From Allomeiothermus silvanus DSM 9946 (GTDB lineage Bacteria > Deinococcota > Deinococci > Deinococcales > Thermaceae), in NCBI RefSeq assembly GCF_000092125.1, contig NC_014212.1:3124279-3188278 (forward strand): a stretch of 64,000 bases of DNA, read 5' to 3'. This document shows, piece by piece, positions 10,792 to 28,646 of this stretch. Positions within the stretch are counted from its first letter, which is position 1, and every line of letters begins with the position of its first letter. Made by a program: the position numbers and the translations under genes. Under the pieces are notes generated by a model, which was given only the letters and a program-made list of their open reading frames with translations, searched no databases and was not told where the DNA came from.

Positions 10792-10995
10792 CCGCTCCAG
10801 TCTACCGGCTCGCCGGGTCTGAACGATGTTTGCCATAAACAGAATGTCCTCCCAGGATTTTACCTTTCGCCTGGTTTCTGCGGGATTTCACTGTGGATTG
10901 ACCTACAGATTAGCCCGGCCAACAATGCTCCTCCATCACCGGATTCAATCCACATGCCAATTATTTTCTTTTTGTTGCCCAGTACGGAGATTCGA

Positions 10996-11130
10996 CTTAT
11001 CCCTTAGGTGACTTACCCCACGGCTAAAGCCGGGGGCTTCTGGGGTCTACGAGCATGAGCAACCTCATCGCTCTCGCCCAGGGGCAAGCCCTGCCCCATT
11101 CTCAGGATGTTCAGCGCCGCGTTTACGTCC
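10996..11130 (-). ncRNA. Candidate omega RNA (TnpB guide RNA) at the right end
   Basis: In IS200/IS605 elements the guide RNA of TnpB overlaps the 3' end of tnpB and the right-end hairpins, with the guide just outside the element. Here the last codons of tnpB (ALAVG-stop) are themselves inside a GC-rich hairpin at 11015-11035. The location follows the family rule; the limits are a guess, and the guide would be the flanking sequence just left of ~10996. Confidence 0.4.
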
Positions 11131-12233
11131 CGGTGGATGACCAAACCGCAAGCCCCGCATTCGTAGGGCTTGCCGATAGGCACTTTCTGGACATGGCCGC
11201 AGCCGCTACATATCTGAGAGGTGTATGCCGGATTGACGCTGACGACCCTACGGCCAGCCTCCGCCGCTTTGCCGTAGAGGATGTTCAAGAACTGCCCCCA
11301 GCCCATGTCCAGGATGCTCTTGGACAGGCGGGAGCGGGACATGGCTTTGACGCTCAAGTTCTCGTGGTAGACGACATCGTTGGCCTCCAGGAGTTTGCGG
11401 GCGGTTTTGTGGTGGAAGTCTTTTCGCTGGTTTCGCACCTTGCGGTGCAGCCGCTTGAGGGCGGCGACGGCTTTCTTCCTGCCGCCCCCGCCCCGTTTGC
11501 GCCTGGATACGACGCGTTGCTGTCGCCTCAGTTTGGCCTCAGTTTTGCGGTAGTAGTGAGGGGCAGGTACAAACTCGCCGTCCGAGGTAACGAGGAAGTT
11601 GGGGTTGACCCCGAGGTCTATCCCGACCTCGCCTCCCGTGGCGGGCAGGGGTTGGGGCTCGACCTCGCAGACGTACACCGCGTACCAGTGAAGGGCCATC
11701 GGCCCCCGGCTGGCGCCGGTACTCAAGTGCTCCCCATCGCGCTTGATGGTGAGGGTCTTGGGCCGTCCGGCTAGGGGGCGATGCCATTTGATGCGCACGT
11801 CCCCGATGTTGGGCAGTCGGATGCGGTTGGAGCCCACCGGCTTGCCGGGGCCAAACCAGTTGTCCCGGCTATTGTCCCAGACCTGCTTGAAGTGGAAGGA
11901 GTTCCAGCGGTCTTTGCTCTTGAAGCGCGGGTAACCCGCCTTCTCGCCCGCCTTGACCCGGCGAAAGAAACCCTGAAAGGCCCGGTCGAGTTGGGTGATG
12001 ACCCCTTGCAGCACGTGGGCGTGGATGCGGCGGTATTCGGGGCGCCCCTCTTTGACCAGGGCCAAAGAGCGCATCTGCTCAAACGCCGTGACCGTCTTGC
12101 CCGCCTTCTTGTAGGCATCCCGCCGCTCTTGCAACGCCGCGTTGTACAGCTCTCGGGTGCGGTTCAGGTGCTCCTCCAAGTCCTTCAGTTGAGGCTTGGT
12201 GGGGTAGATGCGGTAGGCGAAGGCTTTCAGCAT
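11013..12233 (-). CDS. tnpB: RNA-guided endonuclease TnpB
   Basis: 406 residues from ATG 12233 (MLKAFAYRIYPTKPQ), the classic OrfB start. A much longer open frame upstream is the out-of-frame tnpA region. The RuvC-like catalytic residues are all present: Asp in VGIDLGVNPNF, Glu in YHENLSVKAM and Asp in HRDVNAALNI. The zinc finger CSGCG...CGACG is intact. The protein therefore looks active, in contrast to the broken tnpA beside it. Confidence 0.93.
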   Translation of the reverse strand: MLKAFAYRIYPTKPQLKDLEEHLNRTRELYNAALQERRDAYKKAGKTVTAFEQMRSLALVKEGRPEYRRIHAHVLQGVITQLDRAFQGFFRRVKAGEKAGYPRFKSKDRWNSFHFKQVWDNSRDNWFGPGKPVGSNRIRLPNIGDVRIKWHRPLAGRPKTLTIKRDGEHLSTGASRGPMALHWYAVYVCEVEPQPLPATGGEVGIDLGVNPNFLVTSDGEFVPAPHYYRKTEAKLRRQQRVVSRRKRGGGGRKKAVAALKRLHRKVRNQRKDFHHKTARKLLEANDVVYHENLSVKAMSRSRLSKSILDMGWGQFLNILYGKAAEAGRRVVSVNPAYTSQICSGCGHVQKVPIGKPYECGACGLVIHRDVNAALNILRMGQGLPLGESDEVAHARRPQKPPALAVG

Positions 12234-12241
12234 GCTAATGG

Positions 12242-12660
12242 CTAGACGTTTCTCTGGTTCTCGATGTAGCGCTTGATGACCGCCAACGGAGCGCCGCCCA
12301 CCGTGCTCAAAAAGTAGCTGTTTGTCCAAAGGGTAGGCAAGCGGCTTTTGAGGTGCGGGAACTCCTGCCGGAGTTGGCGGCTGGAACGCCCTTTGAGCAA
12401 CCTGACCAAACGATGCACCCCGAACTGAGGGTCTACCTCCAGCAACAGATGCACGTGGTCGGGCATCACCTCCGTCTGGAAAAGCTCGCACCTGTGTTCG
12501 GCGCATATCTCGTTCAGTATCTCTTCAGTATCTCCCGCAACCTATCCACCACCGCCCCCACCAGCACCGGACGGCGGTACTTGGGGCAGAAGACAATGTG
12601 GTACTTGGAAGGGTACACGATGTTTTTGTTTTGCTTGTACTGAACGGGGTAGCGCTTCAC
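12242..12660 (-). pseudogene. tnpA: IS200-type Y1 transposase TnpA, frameshifted
   Basis: From GTG 12660 the frame encodes the TnpA start (YHIVFCPKYRRPVL) and then stops at ILKRY. The missing remainder continues in another frame: EVMPDHVHLLLEV (HUH motif) and AVIKRYIENQ (catalytic Tyr). The cause is visible: an 11-bp tandem duplication, TTCAGTATCTC, at 12514-12524 and 12525-12535. Removing one unit restores a single ~135-residue TnpA. The gene has no ribosome site and appears leaderless. Confidence 0.88.
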
Positions 12661-12667
12661 TGCGACT

Positions 12668-12696
12668 ATTATATAGCAAAGAGCTATCTACGTCCA
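12668..12696 (-). promoter_or_regulatory. Promoter of leaderless tnpA, abutted by IS481 copy 2
   Basis: Minus strand: TGGACG (12696-12691), 17-bp spacer, TATAAT (12673-12668). The GTG start is 8 bases after the -10, so the mRNA would begin at or next to the start codon. The IS481 target duplication CGCAG (12697-12701) touches the -35. Confidence 0.75.
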
Positions 12697-13764
12697 CGCA
12701 GTGTAATCGGTCAACACATTTGAGACTCTTTGAGGAACCGACTCCTCTTGCATCTTAGCCAAAAACTCCAGCGGAGCAAGACCCCCCAGGGCCATGTGAG
12801 GCCTTCGGCGGTTGTAGTAGTCCAGGTAGGTATCCAGCTCTGCCTGCAGCTCGCTGAGCGGGGTGGGCAAAGGCCGGGTGTAGAACTCCTCCTTGAAGGT
12901 CCGCTGCATCCGCTCCACGTGACCATTGAGTTTAGGACTCCTCGGCGGTAGCACAAACAAGGCAATCCCCAGAGCACAGCAGGCCTCCTCAAACTCGGCC
13001 ATGAACTCGCTGCCCCCATCCACCTGGATGGCCCGGATGGGAAAAGGGGCCCTGGCCAGAAGCAAGGACAAGAACCCCTCAGAAAGCTTAGCCGTGGCCC
13101 GGCTGTGCACCTCCGCCAGGACAAACCGGCTATGGAGGTCAATCGCCGAGAAGTGCTTGACCATGCTTCCCGGTCCTAAGGTCAGGGTGAGGGTGTCCAC
13201 CTGGACCAGGTCCCCAGGAGCCCTGGCCTCGTATCCTCGGGGCTTCCTTTTGGCGTAGGGCCGGTTTACCCTTCGCTTTAGCTTCCCTCTTTGAGTCCGG
13301 GCCAGGTAGCCGGCCACGCTCTCGATACGTCGGTGCTTCTCCAGGTAGGCCAGGATGCGCCCCACCGTGCGTTCGCTCATCTGGAAACCCTCCTTGCGGA
13401 GGGTAAGCCAGATGGACCAGCGTCCCCAGGTGGGGTTTTCCTTGCGGAGAGTTTCTATTCTAATGAGCAGCCCTGGGGTCCAGTGGACCTTTGTGCGCAG
13501 GTGCTTAGGGCGGCGGGAGCGGGGTTTGAGTCCAGCCAGGCCCTTTTCTTTTAGGGCTTTTTGCCAGCGGTGGTAGGTGGCCCGGCTGATCCCGACCAGG
13601 TCCTGGATCTCCTTCCAGCTCTTTTTACTTTCACGCAGGGCTTTGACCAGTCGGAGCTTGCGCAGACGTTCCTGGACCTCTGGGTCGCTTGCGTTGGCCT
13701 CGGCCAGCCTCTGTGCTTGTCTAGCGCCTCTCCATATCTCTCGGCCAACGGTGGTAAACTGCAC
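12688..13764 (-). CDS. IS481-type transposase, copy 2
   Basis: The protein is identical to copy 1 through LTDY (see copy 1 for catalytic residues). The GTG start is at 13764. The frame leaves the element and ends at a TAG in the flanking tnpA promoter region, adding TAWT. The stop codon is therefore supplied by target DNA. Confidence 0.93.
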   Translation of the reverse strand: MQFTTVGREIWRGARQAQRLAEANASDPEVQERLRKLRLVKALRESKKSWKEIQDLVGISRATYHRWQKALKEKGLAGLKPRSRRPKHLRTKVHWTPGLLIRIETLRKENPTWGRWSIWLTLRKEGFQMSERTVGRILAYLEKHRRIESVAGYLARTQRGKLKRRVNRPYAKRKPRGYEARAPGDLVQVDTLTLTLGPGSMVKHFSAIDLHSRFVLAEVHSRATAKLSEGFLSLLLARAPFPIRAIQVDGGSEFMAEFEEACCALGIALFVLPPRSPKLNGHVERMQRTFKEEFYTRPLPTPLSELQAELDTYLDYYNRRRPHMALGGLAPLEFLAKMQEESVPQRVSNVLTDYTAWT

Positions 13765-13841
13765 CTGGGGAACCTCCTTTCCTGGTCGGTTCCCCTCTTT
13801 TTATCCCAGCTTAGAGTCTCACATGTGTTTGTCCGGGTTCA
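12702..13841 (-). mobile_element. IS481-type insertion sequence, copy 2 (1140 bp)
   Basis: Same ends and length as copy 1, opposite orientation. The 5-bp duplication CGCAG flanks it exactly (12697-12701, 13842-13846). It sits upstream of the IS605 tnpA, with its transposase pointing toward the tnpA promoter. Confidence 0.95.
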
Positions 13842-13963
13842 CGCAGCGCTCTTTCAGAGCGCAAACCGCTCACCCCATGCCTGTAAGGCAGGGGCTTGCG
13901 CGGCTTATTCGGTCAGTTTTTGGATTCAAAAGGCGGCGTTCTCACCCAGGGGGGGGTTCTCCA

Positions 13964-13982
13964 TGGTATAGTCAGATACGTG
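13964..13982 (+). promoter_or_regulatory. Extended -10 promoter, leaderless start of tetR-carD
   Basis: TGG-TATAGT (13964-13972) is an extended -10 with no clear -35. The GTG of the regulator begins 8 bases after it and has no ribosome site, so a leaderless mRNA is likely, as is common in this phylum. Confidence 0.55.
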
Positions 13983-14537
13983 ACGCCGGAGGCCAAGGTT
14001 GCCGATAAGCGGGAAGCGATCCTGGAGGCAACCATTAAGGTCTTGCAACAACGTGGTCTCTCAGGGTTGAAGGTTGAAGAAGTTGCCCGCGCAGCCGAAG
14101 TGGGTAAGGGTACCGTTTACCTGTACTTCCAGGATAAGCAAGATCTGCTCAAAGCGCTGGTAGAGCACCACGCGCTTTCTTTTTACCGGAATGTGGAGCA
14201 GATAGTCATGCAAGACCGCCCTTTCGCCGAACGGTTGCGAGAGGTGTTGGCTCTTAGGCTCGATTTCGCCTCGGAGTGGCGGGGTTCTTGGGCCTCAGTA
14301 GCCCGGGAAGCCCACCCTGGCGATCCTTCGGGCTGGCTCAAGGGCTTGCGCGAAACCTACCTACGGCTCTTGGAAGTATTGGTACGCAGCGGTCAAGAAC
14401 GCGGCGAGGTTCGCCGTGATTTAGACCCCAGCCTAACGGCAGCAGTACTTGACGCCATCAACCCGCAGTTTGAGTTACCCCGGCAGGCGTACCTCGAGCA
14501 CCTTATGGAGGTGCTCGTGAAAGGAGTGGGCCAGTGA
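13980..14537 (+). CDS. TetR family transcriptional regulator
   Basis: About 185 residues from GTG 13980. The N-terminal helix-turn-helix is typical: KREAILEATIKVLQQRG, LKVEEVARAAEVGKGTVYLY, FQDKQDLLKALVEHH. The C-terminal ligand-binding part is divergent. The longer frame to 13896 would overlap the promoter. The stop overlaps the carD start by 4 bp (GTGA), so the two are co-translated; regulation of CarD level by a small ligand is an inference. Confidence 0.88.
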   Translation: MTPEAKVADKREAILEATIKVLQQRGLSGLKVEEVARAAEVGKGTVYLYFQDKQDLLKALVEHHALSFYRNVEQIVMQDRPFAERLREVLALRLDFASEWRGSWASVAREAHPGDPSGWLKGLRETYLRLLEVLVRSGQERGEVRRDLDPSLTAAVLDAINPQFELPRQAYLEHLMEVLVKGVGQ

Positions 14538-15028
14538 AAGAGTACCGTCCAGGCGATAAGGTGGTTCTGCCACCCTACGGGGTTGGCGTAGTGGCGAGCA
14601 TCATGCAGCGCACGATCTCTGGCAATCAACGGGCCTACTATCAAGTGGAGTTTCCCAATACCCGTTCTAAAGCGTACGTACCCGTGGAATCTCCCCAGAG
14701 CGCGCGCATGCGGCCAGCCTTGTGCCGCGAAGAGATCGAAGAGATCCTCGAGCTCTTACGCAACGGACGCCTCTCTTTGCCGCGCCAGTGGGCTGCCCGG
14801 CATCGCAAAACCAGCGAGATCCTGGCCGAAGGCGATCCCTACCGCATTGCCACCTTGGCGGGGCAACTACGGGCCTGGGAGCTCGAGCGGGGCCTGCCCG
14901 ACCTCGACCGCCAGGCTTTCCGCCGAGCGATCCATCTCCTCGCTGAGGAAGTCTGCCAGGCCATGGAAGTGAGCCTCGAAGAAGCCCGCGCTATGTTCGA
15001 GAACGCCTGGGGCGAGGAACTAAACTAG
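14534..15028 (+). CDS. carD: CarD-family RNA polymerase-binding regulator
   Basis: 164 residues, the size of Thermus CarD. The N-terminal RNA polymerase-interacting domain has PGDKVVLPPYGVGVV and a Tudor-like beta core (residues 1-65); the C-terminal helical half (LLAEEVCQAMEVSLEEA) fits the DNA-binding domain that contacts the upstream edge of the -10. CarD stabilises the open complex, notably at rRNA and tRNA promoters. It is translationally coupled to the TetR gene, and the unit ends at the terminator at 15056. Confidence 0.88.
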   Translation: MKEYRPGDKVVLPPYGVGVVASIMQRTISGNQRAYYQVEFPNTRSKAYVPVESPQSARMRPALCREEIEEILELLRNGRLSLPRQWAARHRKTSEILAEGDPYRIATLAGQLRAWELERGLPDLDRQAFRRAIHLLAEEVCQAMEVSLEEARAMFENAWGEELN

Positions 15029-15055
15029 AAGAACCTACAACCCCACCCTCTTATA

Positions 15056-15077
15056 AGTCCCCATTTGGGGGCTTTTG
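15056..15077 (+). terminator. Terminator of tetR-carD
   Basis: GTCCCC-ATTT-GGGGGC followed by TTTT, 28 bases after the carD stop. Confidence 0.75.
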
Positions 15078-15167
15078 CTTTATCGCGTTTCCCACCCTTA
15101 CGCCTCACGTAATGTACTCGGCCCAGCAAACCCCGCTGTACCGAGTATTCGTGGGAACCGCTCTAGG

Positions 15168-16490
15168 TCATGCGGCTGGCCAACAGCGGCTAGATGCAAG
15201 GCCGGGTCCGGGTATGTAGTCCAAGATCGCACCCCCCAAAAGCAAAGCCCGAGGGACAATTCCTCGGGCTTCTCTCCTGGCTCCGCGGGCAGGACTCGAA
15301 CCTGCGACCATCCGATTAACAGTCGGACGCTCTACCGACTGAGCTACCGCGGAATATTTTGACCCACGCCTCAAGGCGTTAGGGGCAAGGGCTAATATAG
15401 CAAAGCCCCCCCACCTTGGCAAGTGCTTGTAATCGGTCAACACATTTGAGACTCTTTGAGGAACCGACTCCTCTTGCATCTTAGCCAAAAACTCCAGCGG
15501 AGCAAGACCCCCCAGGGCCATGTGAGGCCTTCGGCGGTTGTGGTAGTCCAGGTAGGTATCCAGCTCTGCCTGCAGCTCGCTGAGCGGGGTGGGCAAAGGC
15601 CGGGTGTAGAACTCCTCCTTGAAGGTCCGCTGCATCCGCTCCACGTGACCATTGAGTTTAGGACTCCTCGGCGGTAGCACAAACAAGGCAATCCCCAGAG
15701 CACAGCAGGCCTCCTCAAACTCGGCCATGAACTCGCTGCCCCCATCCACCTGGATGGCCCGGATGGGAAAAGGGGCCCTGGCCAGAAGCAAGGACAAGAA
15801 CCCCTCAGAAAGCTTAGCCGTGGCCCGGCTGTGCACCTCCGCCAGGACAAACCGGCTATGGAGGTCAATCGCCGAGAAGTGCTTGACCATGCTTCCCGGT
15901 CCTAAGGTCAGGGTGAGGGTGTCCACCTGGACCAGGTCCCCAGGAGCCCTGGCCTCGTATCCTCGGGGCTTCCTTTTGGCGTAGGGCCGGTTTACCCTTC
16001 GCTTTAGCTTCCCTCTTTGAGTCCGGGCCAGGTAGCCGGCCACGCTCTCGATACGTCGGTGCTTCTCCAGGTAGGCCAGGATGCGCCCCACCGTGCGTTC
16101 GCTCATCTGGAAACCCTCCTTGCGGAGGGTAAGCCAGATGGACCAGCGTCCCCAGGTGGGGTTTTCCTTGCGGAGAGTTTCTATTCTAATGAGCAGCCCT
16201 GGGGTCCAGTGGACCTTTGTGCGCAGGTGCTTAGGGCGGCGGGAGCGGGGTTTGAGTCCAGCCAGGCCCTTTTCTTTTAGGGCTTTTTGCCAGCGGTGGT
16301 AGGTGGCCCGGCTGATCCCGACCAGGTCCTGGATCTCCTTCCAGCTCTTTTTACTTTCACGCAGGGCTTTGACCAGTCGGAGCTTGCGCAGACGTTCCTG
16401 GACCTCTGGGTCGCTTGCGTTGGCCTCGGCCAGCCTCTGTGCTTGTCTAGCGCCTCTCCATATCTCTCGGCCAACGGTGGTAAACTGCAC
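15168..16490 (-). CDS. IS481-type transposase, copy 3 (reads through into tRNA-Asn)
   Basis: Same protein as copy 1 with one Tyr-to-His substitution near residue 316. No stop occurs at the end of the element, and none follows in the flank for over 250 bases. The frame runs through the tRNA-Asn promoter and in sense through the tRNA gene to 15168, giving a predicted 440-residue product with an 84-86-residue foreign tail. The tail is accidental and may destabilise the protein. The functional part ends at 15428. Confidence 0.88.
   Translation of the reverse strand: MQFTTVGREIWRGARQAQRLAEANASDPEVQERLRKLRLVKALRESKKSWKEIQDLVGISRATYHRWQKALKEKGLAGLKPRSRRPKHLRTKVHWTPGLLIRIETLRKENPTWGRWSIWLTLRKEGFQMSERTVGRILAYLEKHRRIESVAGYLARTQRGKLKRRVNRPYAKRKPRGYEARAPGDLVQVDTLTLTLGPGSMVKHFSAIDLHSRFVLAEVHSRATAKLSEGFLSLLLARAPFPIRAIQVDGGSEFMAEFEEACCALGIALFVLPPRSPKLNGHVERMQRTFKEEFYTRPLPTPLSELQAELDTYLDYHNRRRPHMALGGLAPLEFLAKMQEESVPQRVSNVLTDYKHLPRWGGFAILALAPNALRRGSKYSAVAQSVERPTVNRMVAGSSPARGARREARGIVPRALLLGGAILDYIPGPGLASSRCWPAA
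15238..15271 (-). terminator. Terminator of tRNA-Asn
   Basis: Minus strand: AGCCCGAGG-AATTGT-CCCTCGGGCT followed by TTGCTTTT, immediately downstream of the tRNA CCA end. Confidence 0.8.
15278..15353 (-). tRNA. tRNA-Asn (GTT)
   Basis: 76 nt including encoded CCA. Acceptor TCCGCGG pairs with CCGCGGA; D-arm GCTCAGTCGGTAGAGC; anticodon loop CTGTTAA gives GTT; T-arm GCAGGTTCGAGTCCTGC. Confidence 0.97.
15394..15422 (-). promoter_or_regulatory. tRNA-Asn promoter, abutted by IS481 copy 3
   Basis: Minus strand: TTGCCA (15422-15417), 17-bp spacer, TATATT (15399-15394). The tRNA starts ~35 bases downstream of the expected start site. The IS481 target duplication (15423-15427) touches the -35. Confidence 0.85.
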
Positions 16491-16567
16491 CTGGGGAACC
16501 TCCTTTCCTGGTCGGTTCCCCTCTTTTTATCCCAGCTTAGAGTCTCACATGTGTTTGTCCGGGTTCA
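15428..16567 (-). mobile_element. IS481-type insertion sequence, copy 3 (1140 bp)
   Basis: Same ends and length as copies 1 and 2. The flanking 5-mers GTGCT (15423-15427) and GTGCA (16568-16572) form a target duplication with one mismatch. It differs from copy 1 by at least one coding change (Tyr to His in LDYHNRRRP). Confidence 0.94.
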
Positions 16568-16889: not shown

Positions 16890-18230
16890 ATGGAAGGTCG
16901 CATCCCTCCCCACAACCTAGAAGCCGAAGCCAGCGTGCTGGGTTCCGTGTTGCTCGATAGCGAGGTGCTGGATCGGCTCGAGGGCATCCTCACCGCCGAG
17001 TCTTTCTACAAGGAAGGCCACCGCAAGATCTGGACCTGCATGGAGCAGCTCCGCATGCGGGGCGAGCCGGTAGACCTGGTGACCCTCTCCAACGAACTCG
17101 CCACCCGGGGAGAACTCGATGTAGCCGGAGGCCTCTCGTATCTGGTAGGGCTCTCGGAAAATACACCCACCGCCGCCTATGCGGAGTACTACGCGCGAAT
17201 CGTAGCGGAGAAGTGGACCTTGCGCCGGTTGATCGAAGCCGCAGGGGAAGCCATGAAGATGGCCTACGAGGAGTCAGGAAGCCTCGAGGAGATCCTAGAC
17301 GGGGCCGGGCGAAGGGTGCTCGAGGTAGCCCTAGCAGGCAGCAAAACCGAGTTCCAAAACATGCGCGACCTGGTGCACGAAACCTTCGAGCACATCCAGC
17401 AGCTTTACGAAAACCAGGGAGCTACCACCGGGCTACGCAGCGGGTTCCGCGAACTCGACCTGATGATCGGAGGGTTCACCCCGGGGTCCTTGAACATCAT
17501 CGCCGCTAGGCCCTCCATGGGAAAAACTGCTTTTGCCCTGACCATCGCACAAAACGTGGCCCTGCGCGAGAACATAGGGGTGGCGATCTTTTCCCTGGAG
17601 ATGCCCGCCGTGCAGCTCGTCACCCGCATGATGTGCTCGGAGGCGCGCATCGATATGAACCGGCTGCGGCAGGGCCAGCTTACCGACCGGGACTTCTCGC
17701 GGCTGGTAGACGTAGCTGGGCGCATCGCCGAGGCCCCCATCCTCATCGACGATAGCTCCGACATGACCCTGATGGAACTAAGAAGCCGGGCGCGACGCTT
17801 GATGAGCCAGCAAAAGCTAGGGCTAATCGTGATCGACTACTTGCAGCTCATGTCTGGCCCGACCTCGAGCCGCAACGGAGGTGGAGAGAACCGCCAACAG
17901 GAGATCGCGGCGATCTCGCGTGGTCTCAAAGGACTGGCCCGCGAACTGAGCGTGCCGGTAATTGCCCTCTCCCAGCTCTCGCGGGCGGTGGAGGCAAGGC
18001 CCAACAAACGCCCCATGCTCTCTGACCTGAGGGAATCGGGATCCATCGAGCAAGACGCCGACCTGGTGATGTTTATCTACCGCGACGACTACTACAACCC
18101 CCACTCCGAGAAAGCCGGAATTGCCGAGATCATCGTAGGGAAGCAGCGCAATGGCCCCACCGGCACCGCCGAGCTACAGTTCCATGCGCAGCATGTGCGC
18201 TTCAACGACCTGGCCAGAGATGAGGTGTGA
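16890..18230 (+). CDS. dnaB: Replicative DNA helicase DnaB
   Basis: 446 residues, without an intein. The hexameric 5'-3' helicase of the replication fork. The N-terminal primase-interacting domain (PPHNLEAEASVLGSVLLD, residues 5-22) is followed by the linker and a RecA-type motor: Walker A IIAARPSMGKTAFAL (~207), Walker B LIVIDYLQLM, ALSQLSRAVEARPNKRPMLS and the arginine-finger region LRESGSIEQDADLVMFIYR. It stands alone and converges on the TPR gene, with paired palindromes between them. Confidence 0.97.
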   Translation: MEGRIPPHNLEAEASVLGSVLLDSEVLDRLEGILTAESFYKEGHRKIWTCMEQLRMRGEPVDLVTLSNELATRGELDVAGGLSYLVGLSENTPTAAYAEYYARIVAEKWTLRRLIEAAGEAMKMAYEESGSLEEILDGAGRRVLEVALAGSKTEFQNMRDLVHETFEHIQQLYENQGATTGLRSGFRELDLMIGGFTPGSLNIIAARPSMGKTAFALTIAQNVALRENIGVAIFSLEMPAVQLVTRMMCSEARIDMNRLRQGQLTDRDFSRLVDVAGRIAEAPILIDDSSDMTLMELRSRARRLMSQQKLGLIVIDYLQLMSGPTSSRNGGGENRQQEIAAISRGLKGLARELSVPVIALSQLSRAVEARPNKRPMLSDLRESGSIEQDADLVMFIYRDDYYNPHSEKAGIAEIIVGKQRNGPTGTAELQFHAQHVRFNDLARDEV

Positions 18231-27506: not shown

Positions 27507-28646
27507 TGAACCCGGACAAACACATGTGAGACTCTAAGCTGGGATAAAAAGAGGGGAACCGACCAGGAAAGGAGGTTCCCCAGGTGCAGTTTACCACCGT
27601 TGGCCGAGAGATATGGAGAGGCGCTAGACAAGCACAGAGGCTGGCCGAGGCCAACGCAAGCGACCCAGAGGTCCAGGAACGTCTGCGCAAGCTCCGACTG
27701 GTCAAAGCCCTGCGTGAAAGTAAAAAGAGCTGGAAGGAGATCCAGGACCTGGTCGGGATCAGCCGGGCCACCTACCACCGCTGGCAAAAAGCCCTAAAAG
27801 AAAAGGGCCTGGCTGGACTCAAACCCCGCTCCCGCCGCCCTAAGCACCTGCGCACAAAGGTCCACTGGACCCCAGGGCTGCTCATTAGAATAGAAACTCT
27901 CCGCAAGGAAAACCCCACCTGGGGACGCTGGTCCATCTGGCTTACCCTCCGCAAGGAGGGTTTCCAGATGAGCGAACGCACGGTGGGGCGCATCCTGGCC
28001 TACCTGGAGAAGCACCGACGTATCGAGAGCGTGGCCGGCTACCTGGCCCGGACTCAAAGAGGGAAGCTAAAGCGAAGGGTAAACCGGCCCTACGCCAAAA
28101 GGAAGCCCCGAGGATACGAGGCCAGGGCTCCTGGGGACCTGGTCCAGGTGGACACCCTCACCCTGACCTTAGGACCGGGAAGCATGGTCAAGCACTTCTC
28201 GGCGATTGACCTCCATAGCCGGTTTGTCCTGGCGGAGGTGCACAGCCGGGCCACGGCTAAGCTTTCTGAGGGGTTCTTGTCCTTGCTTCTGGCCAGGGCC
28301 CCTTTTCCCATCCGGGCCATCCAGGTGGATGGGGGCAGCGAGTTCATGGCCGAGTTTGAGGAGGCCTGCTGTGCTCTGGGGATTGCCTTGTTTGTGCTAC
28401 CGCCGAGGAGTCCTAAACTCAATGGTCACGTGGAGCGGATGCAGCGGACCTTCAAGGAGGAGTTCTACACCCGGCCTTTGCCCACCCCGCTCAGCGAGCT
28501 GCAGGCAGAGCTGGATACCTACCTGGACTACTACAACCGCCGAAGGCCTCACATGGCCCTGGGGGGTCTTGCTCCGCTGGAGTTTTTGGCTAAGATGCAA
28601 GAGGAGTCGGTTCCTCAAAGAGTCTCAAATGTGTTGACCGATTACA
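27507..28646 (+). mobile_element. IS481-type insertion sequence, copy 4
   Basis: Same ends as the other copies. AGGGC precedes the left end (27502-27506) and occurs again at 28646-28650, so the terminal A is shared with the duplication here. The right copy directly abuts the TTGACA of the 16S rRNA promoter. Confidence 0.95.

Follow-up and report, generated by a model that had tools for sequence, protein, structure and literature searches.

The sbtR and carD genes of Allomeiothermus silvanus form a conserved operon whose promoter belongs to a known class

A TetR-family gene and a carD gene of Allomeiothermus silvanus DSM 9946 form a conserved operon of known proteins, SbtR and CarD, and the class of their promoter is also known. 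They were analyzed within a window of 64,000 nucleotides (contig NC_014212.1, positions 3,124,279 to 3,188,278). In the probable reading, a single promoter drives both genes and sets CarD output, and SbtR is a repressor of unlinked genes. Under this reading, sbtR and carD would share a transcript whose 5' end lies at or beside the GTG of sbtR, made from an extended -10 promoter in which the CTCA box never varies. Translation of SbtR would be leaderless; that of carD would use a Shine-Dalgarno-like site of its own near the 3' end of sbtR and might be aided by terminating ribosomes. In A. silvanus, the unlinked targets of SbtR would probably be a DNA repair gene and genes for peptidases and exporters, and SbtR would have no evident part in regulating the sbtR-carD operon.

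SbtR and CarD of Thermus have so far been studied as separate proteins. A text search of the literature found no relevant paper treating the two together; the 2013 SbtR paper of Agari et al. lay outside its scope, and the operon is not claimed to be unpublished. Because both genes use one conserved promoter, deletion of sbtR can disturb carD, and expression data from SbtR-deficient strains should be read with this caution. Control of carD in the phylum can be approached at two concrete sites, the CTCA box found in every locus and the GTG where the mRNA is expected to begin.

SbtR, CarD and their conserved adjacency

The features of the locus, all on the forward strand, are as follows.

13941-13945, +, CTCA(T/C) box, CTCAC in the window, 26 nt 5' of the first -10 base
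13964-13972, +, extended -10 motif TGGTATAGT, followed after 7 nt by the GTG at 13980
13980-14537, +, sbtR ortholog, 185 aa, GTG start, TetR-family repressor, leaderless by position (PDB 3vuq, TetR_N, dN/dS)
14495-14517, +, hairpin-forming stretch directly 5' of the carD ribosome site (minimum free energy against synonymous recodings)
14522-14526, +, AGGAG, Shine-Dalgarno-like site of carD, within sbtR and 7 nt 5' of the carD GTG
14534-15028, +, carD, 164 aa, GTG start overlapping the sbtR stop (PDB 4xlr, PF02559, PF21095, dN/dS)
15055-15074, +, terminator-like hairpin 3' of carD (one found; weak evidence, since shuffled sequence gives 1.4 on average)

The longest frame of the TetR gene opens at a TTG (13896) that lies 5' of the promoter and yields a 213-aa version. 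The GTG at 13980, a start conserved in register with the promoter, was preferred. The 4-bp overlap with carD claimed in an earlier sequence-only reading was confirmed as GTGA at 14534-14537. In the comparison of the window with its congener, dN/dS was 0.055 for sbtR and 0.021 for carD. A tRNA-Asn gene (15278-15353) is convergent to carD.

A search of the PDB returned 3vuq as the best solved relative of the TetR protein (E 9.6e-65), with the next chain at 8.8e-11. Pfam searches, run on the 213-aa version, detected PF00440 (TetR_N, E 2.4e-15) and PF17932 (27.4 against a cut-off of 26.4), and the SbtR-like C-terminal family PF21597 scored 22.8 bits, below its cut-off of 27. The structure 3VUQ is SbtR, the product of TTHA0167 of Thermus thermophilus HB8 (PMC4948773), and the SbtR encoded ahead of carD at locus L087 reads as the 3VUQ sequence that was compared. 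The two proteins are alike over their full length and share the position ahead of carD, and putative operator-type sites are also present in the A. silvanus genome. By its sequence, the window protein is the ortholog of T. thermophilus SbtR.

The window protein and its congener (L113) differ from 3VUQ in lacking the C-terminal cysteine, which forms an inter-subunit disulfide in 3VUQ (PMC4948773, section 5). This cysteine, which need not be a defining mark of the SbtR family, is present in 52 of the 54 intact SbtRs and absent only from these two. T. thermophilus SbtR has been proposed to act in oxidative stress, as quoted in PMC4948773. Since the cysteine is absent from the Allomeiothermus SbtRs, a redox switch acting through it cannot work in this genus.

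The carD product aligned with Thermus CarD (4xlr) over all residues from 1 to 164 (E 3.7e-81). PF02559 (48.8 bits) and PF21095 (44.8 bits) both exceeded their cut-offs, the N-terminal RNA polymerase-interacting and C-terminal DNA-binding domains were both present, and tryptophan 86 was retained. By these sequence features carD of the window encodes a true CarD, with no evident difference from the Thermus protein (4XLR, 4L5G), which stabilizes open promoter complexes, those of rRNA promoters among them (PMC4593161). The A. silvanus genome differs from Thermus in additionally containing a diverged CarD-like gene (37% identity), which has an rsmA-like neighbor. The same setting was seen in a one-contig genome with neither an SbtR nor a CarD ortholog (G009), the sole CarD-like gene of which is diverged (32% identity) and lies beside an rsmA-like gene.

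The survey covered 111 genomes of the class, and a search of the phylum Deinococcota, to which the Deinococcaceae belong, returned the identical 111. The CarD query matched 110 of them at E <= 0.001, many with a second, diverged CarD-like gene, and SbtR was found in 59 at E <= 1e-20. In 58 of these 59 genomes a carD match lay within 12 nt of the sbtR match, so that conservation of the pair, which had been named as a check on the earlier reading, was borne out; the exception is a draft genome (G014) in which the SbtR match ends at residue 160. The loci with CarD at more than 50% identity numbered 120, and 88 of them had distinct carD sequences; sbtR stood ahead of carD in 56 of the 88 and was missing there in 32 (30 outgroup loci and two of Calidithermus). 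The overlap was exactly 4 nt in 52 of the 56 sbtR-carD loci; sbtR stopped 2 nt before carD in two, and its frame was broken in the remaining two.

The shared promoter and its retention in Calidithermus

The motif TGNTANNNT preceded a GTG by 7 nt (39 loci) or 8 nt (17 loci) in all 56 distinct loci, and this promoter-proximal GTG was in frame with sbtR in 55 of them, which supports the single shared extended -10 promoter of the earlier reading. From these positions, sbtR would be leaderless, with the transcript starting at or next to the GTG. The synteny between the window and its congener restarts only at 13918, 62 nt 5' of the sbtR start codon.

A separate strong promoter for carD, the finding that was to refute the earlier reading, was not detected by pattern in these loci. 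In the last 400 nt of sbtR, neither TGNTANNNT nor TTGAC-N16-19-TANNNT occurred in any of the 56 loci, in a pattern scan that unusual promoters would escape, and a consensus scan of 13840-15420 found no -35/-10 pair. An internal carD promoter was rejected on these pattern scans.

A -10 motif of the form TANNNT, placed some 6-7 nt 5' of the start codon, is a known and common pattern in Deinococcus-Thermus (PMC12340547). The sbtR promoter resembles these leaderless promoters in its TANNNT spacing (7 nt in the window) and differs from them in having TGN ahead of the hexamer and, at a fixed distance, the invariant CTCA. Since the -10 motif so close to the frame is common in the phylum, a leaderless arrangement is nothing special here, and what sets this promoter apart is its CTCA box. 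In every one of the 56 loci, CTCA lay exactly 26 nt 5' of the first base of the -10 motif; it extended to CTCAT in 54.

The promoter was also found where sbtR has been lost. Two genomes of Calidithermus, one of them C. chliarophilus, contained no SbtR ortholog genome-wide at 1e-20, with only distant TetR proteins matching (1.3e-7 and 3.0e-9). In both, CTCAT-N18-TGNTATATT, 7 nt and a GTG lie 5' of carD. The stretch that follows resembled the start of SbtR weakly in BLAST (22 aa at 41%, E 0.04; 25 aa at 36%, E 0.56) and was identified as an sbtR remnant because of its position behind the conserved promoter. It is followed by a diverged stretch and then by GAAAGGAGTCGTCGGTG at carD, and a site of the AGGAG/AAGGAG type precedes carD here too. 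Between the two species, identity was 59/104 upstream, 47/51 in the promoter, 54/66 in the 5' remnant, 98/158 in the decayed middle, 32/40 in the ribosome site and 445/495 in carD. Because the promoter and carD stay conserved while the middle of sbtR diverges, the promoter appears to be retained for carD without SbtR; in the simplest reading of these sequences, the SbtR protein would be dispensable for it.

It is conceivable, if rather unlikely, that some unknown regulator sets carD and sbtR together and has the CTCA box as its operator, as the one fixed position of the box in all 56 loci and its retention in both Calidithermus remnants would allow. A general promoter element fits as well, however, since CTCAT-N18-TGNTANNNT was found elsewhere and the N18 spacing was over-represented without the sbtR loci. 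The pattern gave 34 matches in 16 genomes, 12 of which were sbtR promoters, against two in the reversed control. Across 17 CTCAT spacings (N10-26) in five genomes, N18 accounted for 19 of 83 matches, and for 14 of 78 when the five sbtR loci were removed (binomial P 1.7e-4). Some of the other CTCAT-N18 matches lay 7 nt before start codons, for example those of Hsp20-like genes in two Meiothermus genomes (named by eye). The same matches and the same over-representation weaken the case for CTCAT as an operator private to sbtR-carD.

Translation of carD, outgroup leaders and SbtR operators

The translational coupling of carD to sbtR that had been read from the sequence keeps the 4-nt overlap as its one support; the AGGAG that carD has of its own, 7 nt before its start, and the pairing of that site speak against it. 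In a folding test of 52 of the 56 loci, the other four being left out, the hairpin before the carD ribosome site had a lower minimum free energy than synonymous recodings in 47 (mean z -1.15; z < -1.64 in 13), in loci that are related to one another. The ribosome site itself was more paired than in the recodings in only 20 of the 52, and structural hiding of the site was therefore left unsupported. Terminating ribosomes may help carD translation, and a requirement for coupling is unsupported by these sequence features.

Obligate coupling would mean that carD is translated only by ribosomes finishing sbtR and that CarD output follows leaderless sbtR initiation. The overlap in 52 loci and the stabler hairpin in 47 are consistent with it, but carD has its own AGGAG, its site is more paired than recodings in only 20 of 52 loci, two of the 56 loci have no overlap between the genes, and the leader frames of Calidithermus end well before carD; we regard it as unlikely. 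An own initiation site for carD, perhaps helped by ribosomes leaving sbtR, is preferred.

The outgroup set comprised 69 carD loci, 43 of them distinct. In 39 of the 43, an extended -10 motif was followed 6-8 nt on by a GTG, 127-254 nt before carD and without sbtR. Among the remaining extended -10 motifs of these loci, the GTG pattern was seen in one of 21 (Fisher P 1e-11, for loci that are not independent). The frames opening at the outgroup GTG, of 10-85 aa, bore no sign of coding selection: pairs of the same length, which were not independent and excluded those of unequal length, differed at 36, 37 and 35 sites by codon position, and 19 of their changed codons were synonymous and 61 non-synonymous. 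A conserved leader peptide in the outgroups was ruled out by this even spread. Because the GTG is kept in outgroup loci without sbtR, it appears older than the operon, with sbtR occupying the leader. Judged by sequence, the GTG at the carD transcript start may be used by ribosomes or may merely mark the start. Across the order, the carD mRNA might thus begin with a GTG at which leaderless (70S-type) initiation sets the amount of CarD, so that CarD, as the activator of rRNA promoters, would read the state of the ribosome pool in a homeostatic loop, and the leader would later have been taken over by sbtR, which is found in the Thermaceae and the sister family; we consider this quite improbable.

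Many TetR genes regulate their own operon, and this, together with the one promoter common to sbtR and carD, counts for autoregulation by SbtR. The published SbtR operator is TGACYRNNYRGTCA (PMC4948773), and SbtR lowered run-off transcription in vitro from several promoters of this type (earlier work quoted in PMC4948773). From 150 nt 5' of sbtR to 30 nt inside it, an operator scan of the 56 loci performed no better than shuffles, unusual operator shapes lying outside the scan. The best score at the sbtR start, of 12 positions, was 7 in nine loci, 8 in 25 and 9 in 22; shuffles reach as much, and autoregulation was rejected as a candidate on these scores. Moreover, SbtR is dispensable in T. thermophilus, since an SbtR-deficient strain has been array-profiled (PMC7022988). 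The proposal that CarD, and hence stable RNA, answers the ligand of the TetR protein accordingly found no support: no operator rose above shuffles, carD and its promoter outlive sbtR in Calidithermus, and T. thermophilus can do without SbtR. Autoregulation of the operon by SbtR, through which the ligand would set CarD and stable RNA synthesis, is on these grounds very improbable indeed; in addition, the literature text found does not mention TTHA0168, and it names TTHA0167 only as the SbtR gene in PMC4948773.

Co-expression from the shared promoter, with SbtR acting on unlinked genes, remains the preferred reading. The pattern TGACYNNNNRGTCA gave 15 matches in the A. silvanus genome, which are putative SbtR sites, against two in the reversed control. 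Eight of the 15 lie 17-77 nt before the starts of genes of a checked Pfam class, encoding endonuclease III, two MFS transporters, two S9 peptidases, an M3 oligopeptidase, a DUF4397 protein and a TldD/PmbA peptidase; these genes are candidate targets of SbtR. The SbtR list of T. thermophilus also contains efflux proteins and peptidases (TTHA1315, TTHA1316 and TTHA1605; PMC4948773).

Among SbtR-bearing genomes, sites and reversed-control matches numbered 15/2 and 16/3 in Allomeiothermus, 12/0, 10/1, 11/2 and 11/1 in Thermus, 8/1 in G071, and 9/4, 10/2, 9/1 and 6/0 in the sister family. The four Meiothermus genomes, which also have SbtR, gave 14/6, 8/4, 9/10 and 10/8. Among genomes without an SbtR ortholog, the counts were 4/4 and 5/5 in Calidithermus, 10/1 in G009, 10/8 in G001, 15/6 in G004, 4/8 in G083, 3/3 in G092 and 4/0 in G108. 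Operator counts do not simply track the presence of SbtR. In G009 and G004, SbtR-type palindromes were in excess although no SbtR ortholog was found there.

IS481-type copies and neighboring genes

The IS481-type copies in the window are as follows.

12702-13841, IS481-type copy flanking the operon
15428-16567, IS481-type copy flanking the operon
near 2124, -, further IS481-type copy
near 28628, -, further IS481-type copy

The element is 1140 bp long, falls short of the NCBIfam cut-off for its type (212.9 bits against 224) and is present in at least 40 near-complete copies. Insertion sites were compared for 34 copies. The 5 nt on the two flanks were identical in 28 of them, a 5-bp duplication. 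In 22, a hexamer matching TTGACA at four or more of six positions began at a distance of exactly 5 nt from the junction and was followed after 16-19 nt by TANNNT; the same rule held at 77 of 127,910 window positions. From these sites, the element apparently targets sigma-A promoters. The sequence-only reading had placed the operon between two promoter-targeting IS481 copies. The copies are real and sit at promoters, but the operon's own promoter is not one of these: the promoters at both flanking copies read leftwards, towards a tnpB-like ORF and the tRNA-Asn gene, and away from sbtR-carD. A literature text search found no paper linking Meiothermus silvanus with IS481.

In two IS481 copies (L183 and L184) the halves of the duplications are exchanged (TATTG/GGATG and GGATG/TATTG), as recombination between copies would leave them. 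Elements of about 3.1 kb are inserted at 10806-13918 of the window, comprising a tnpB-like ORF (11013-12506) and one IS481-type copy. In the congener, a DUF2227 gene and sbtR lie about 200 nt apart; in the window the two are split by this insert.

A dnaB-like gene encodes 446 aa in the window (16890-18230) and 874-875 aa in the congener (L113:1713-4337) and Calidithermus (L115:2300-4927). The extra segment of the longer genes is intein-like by eye.
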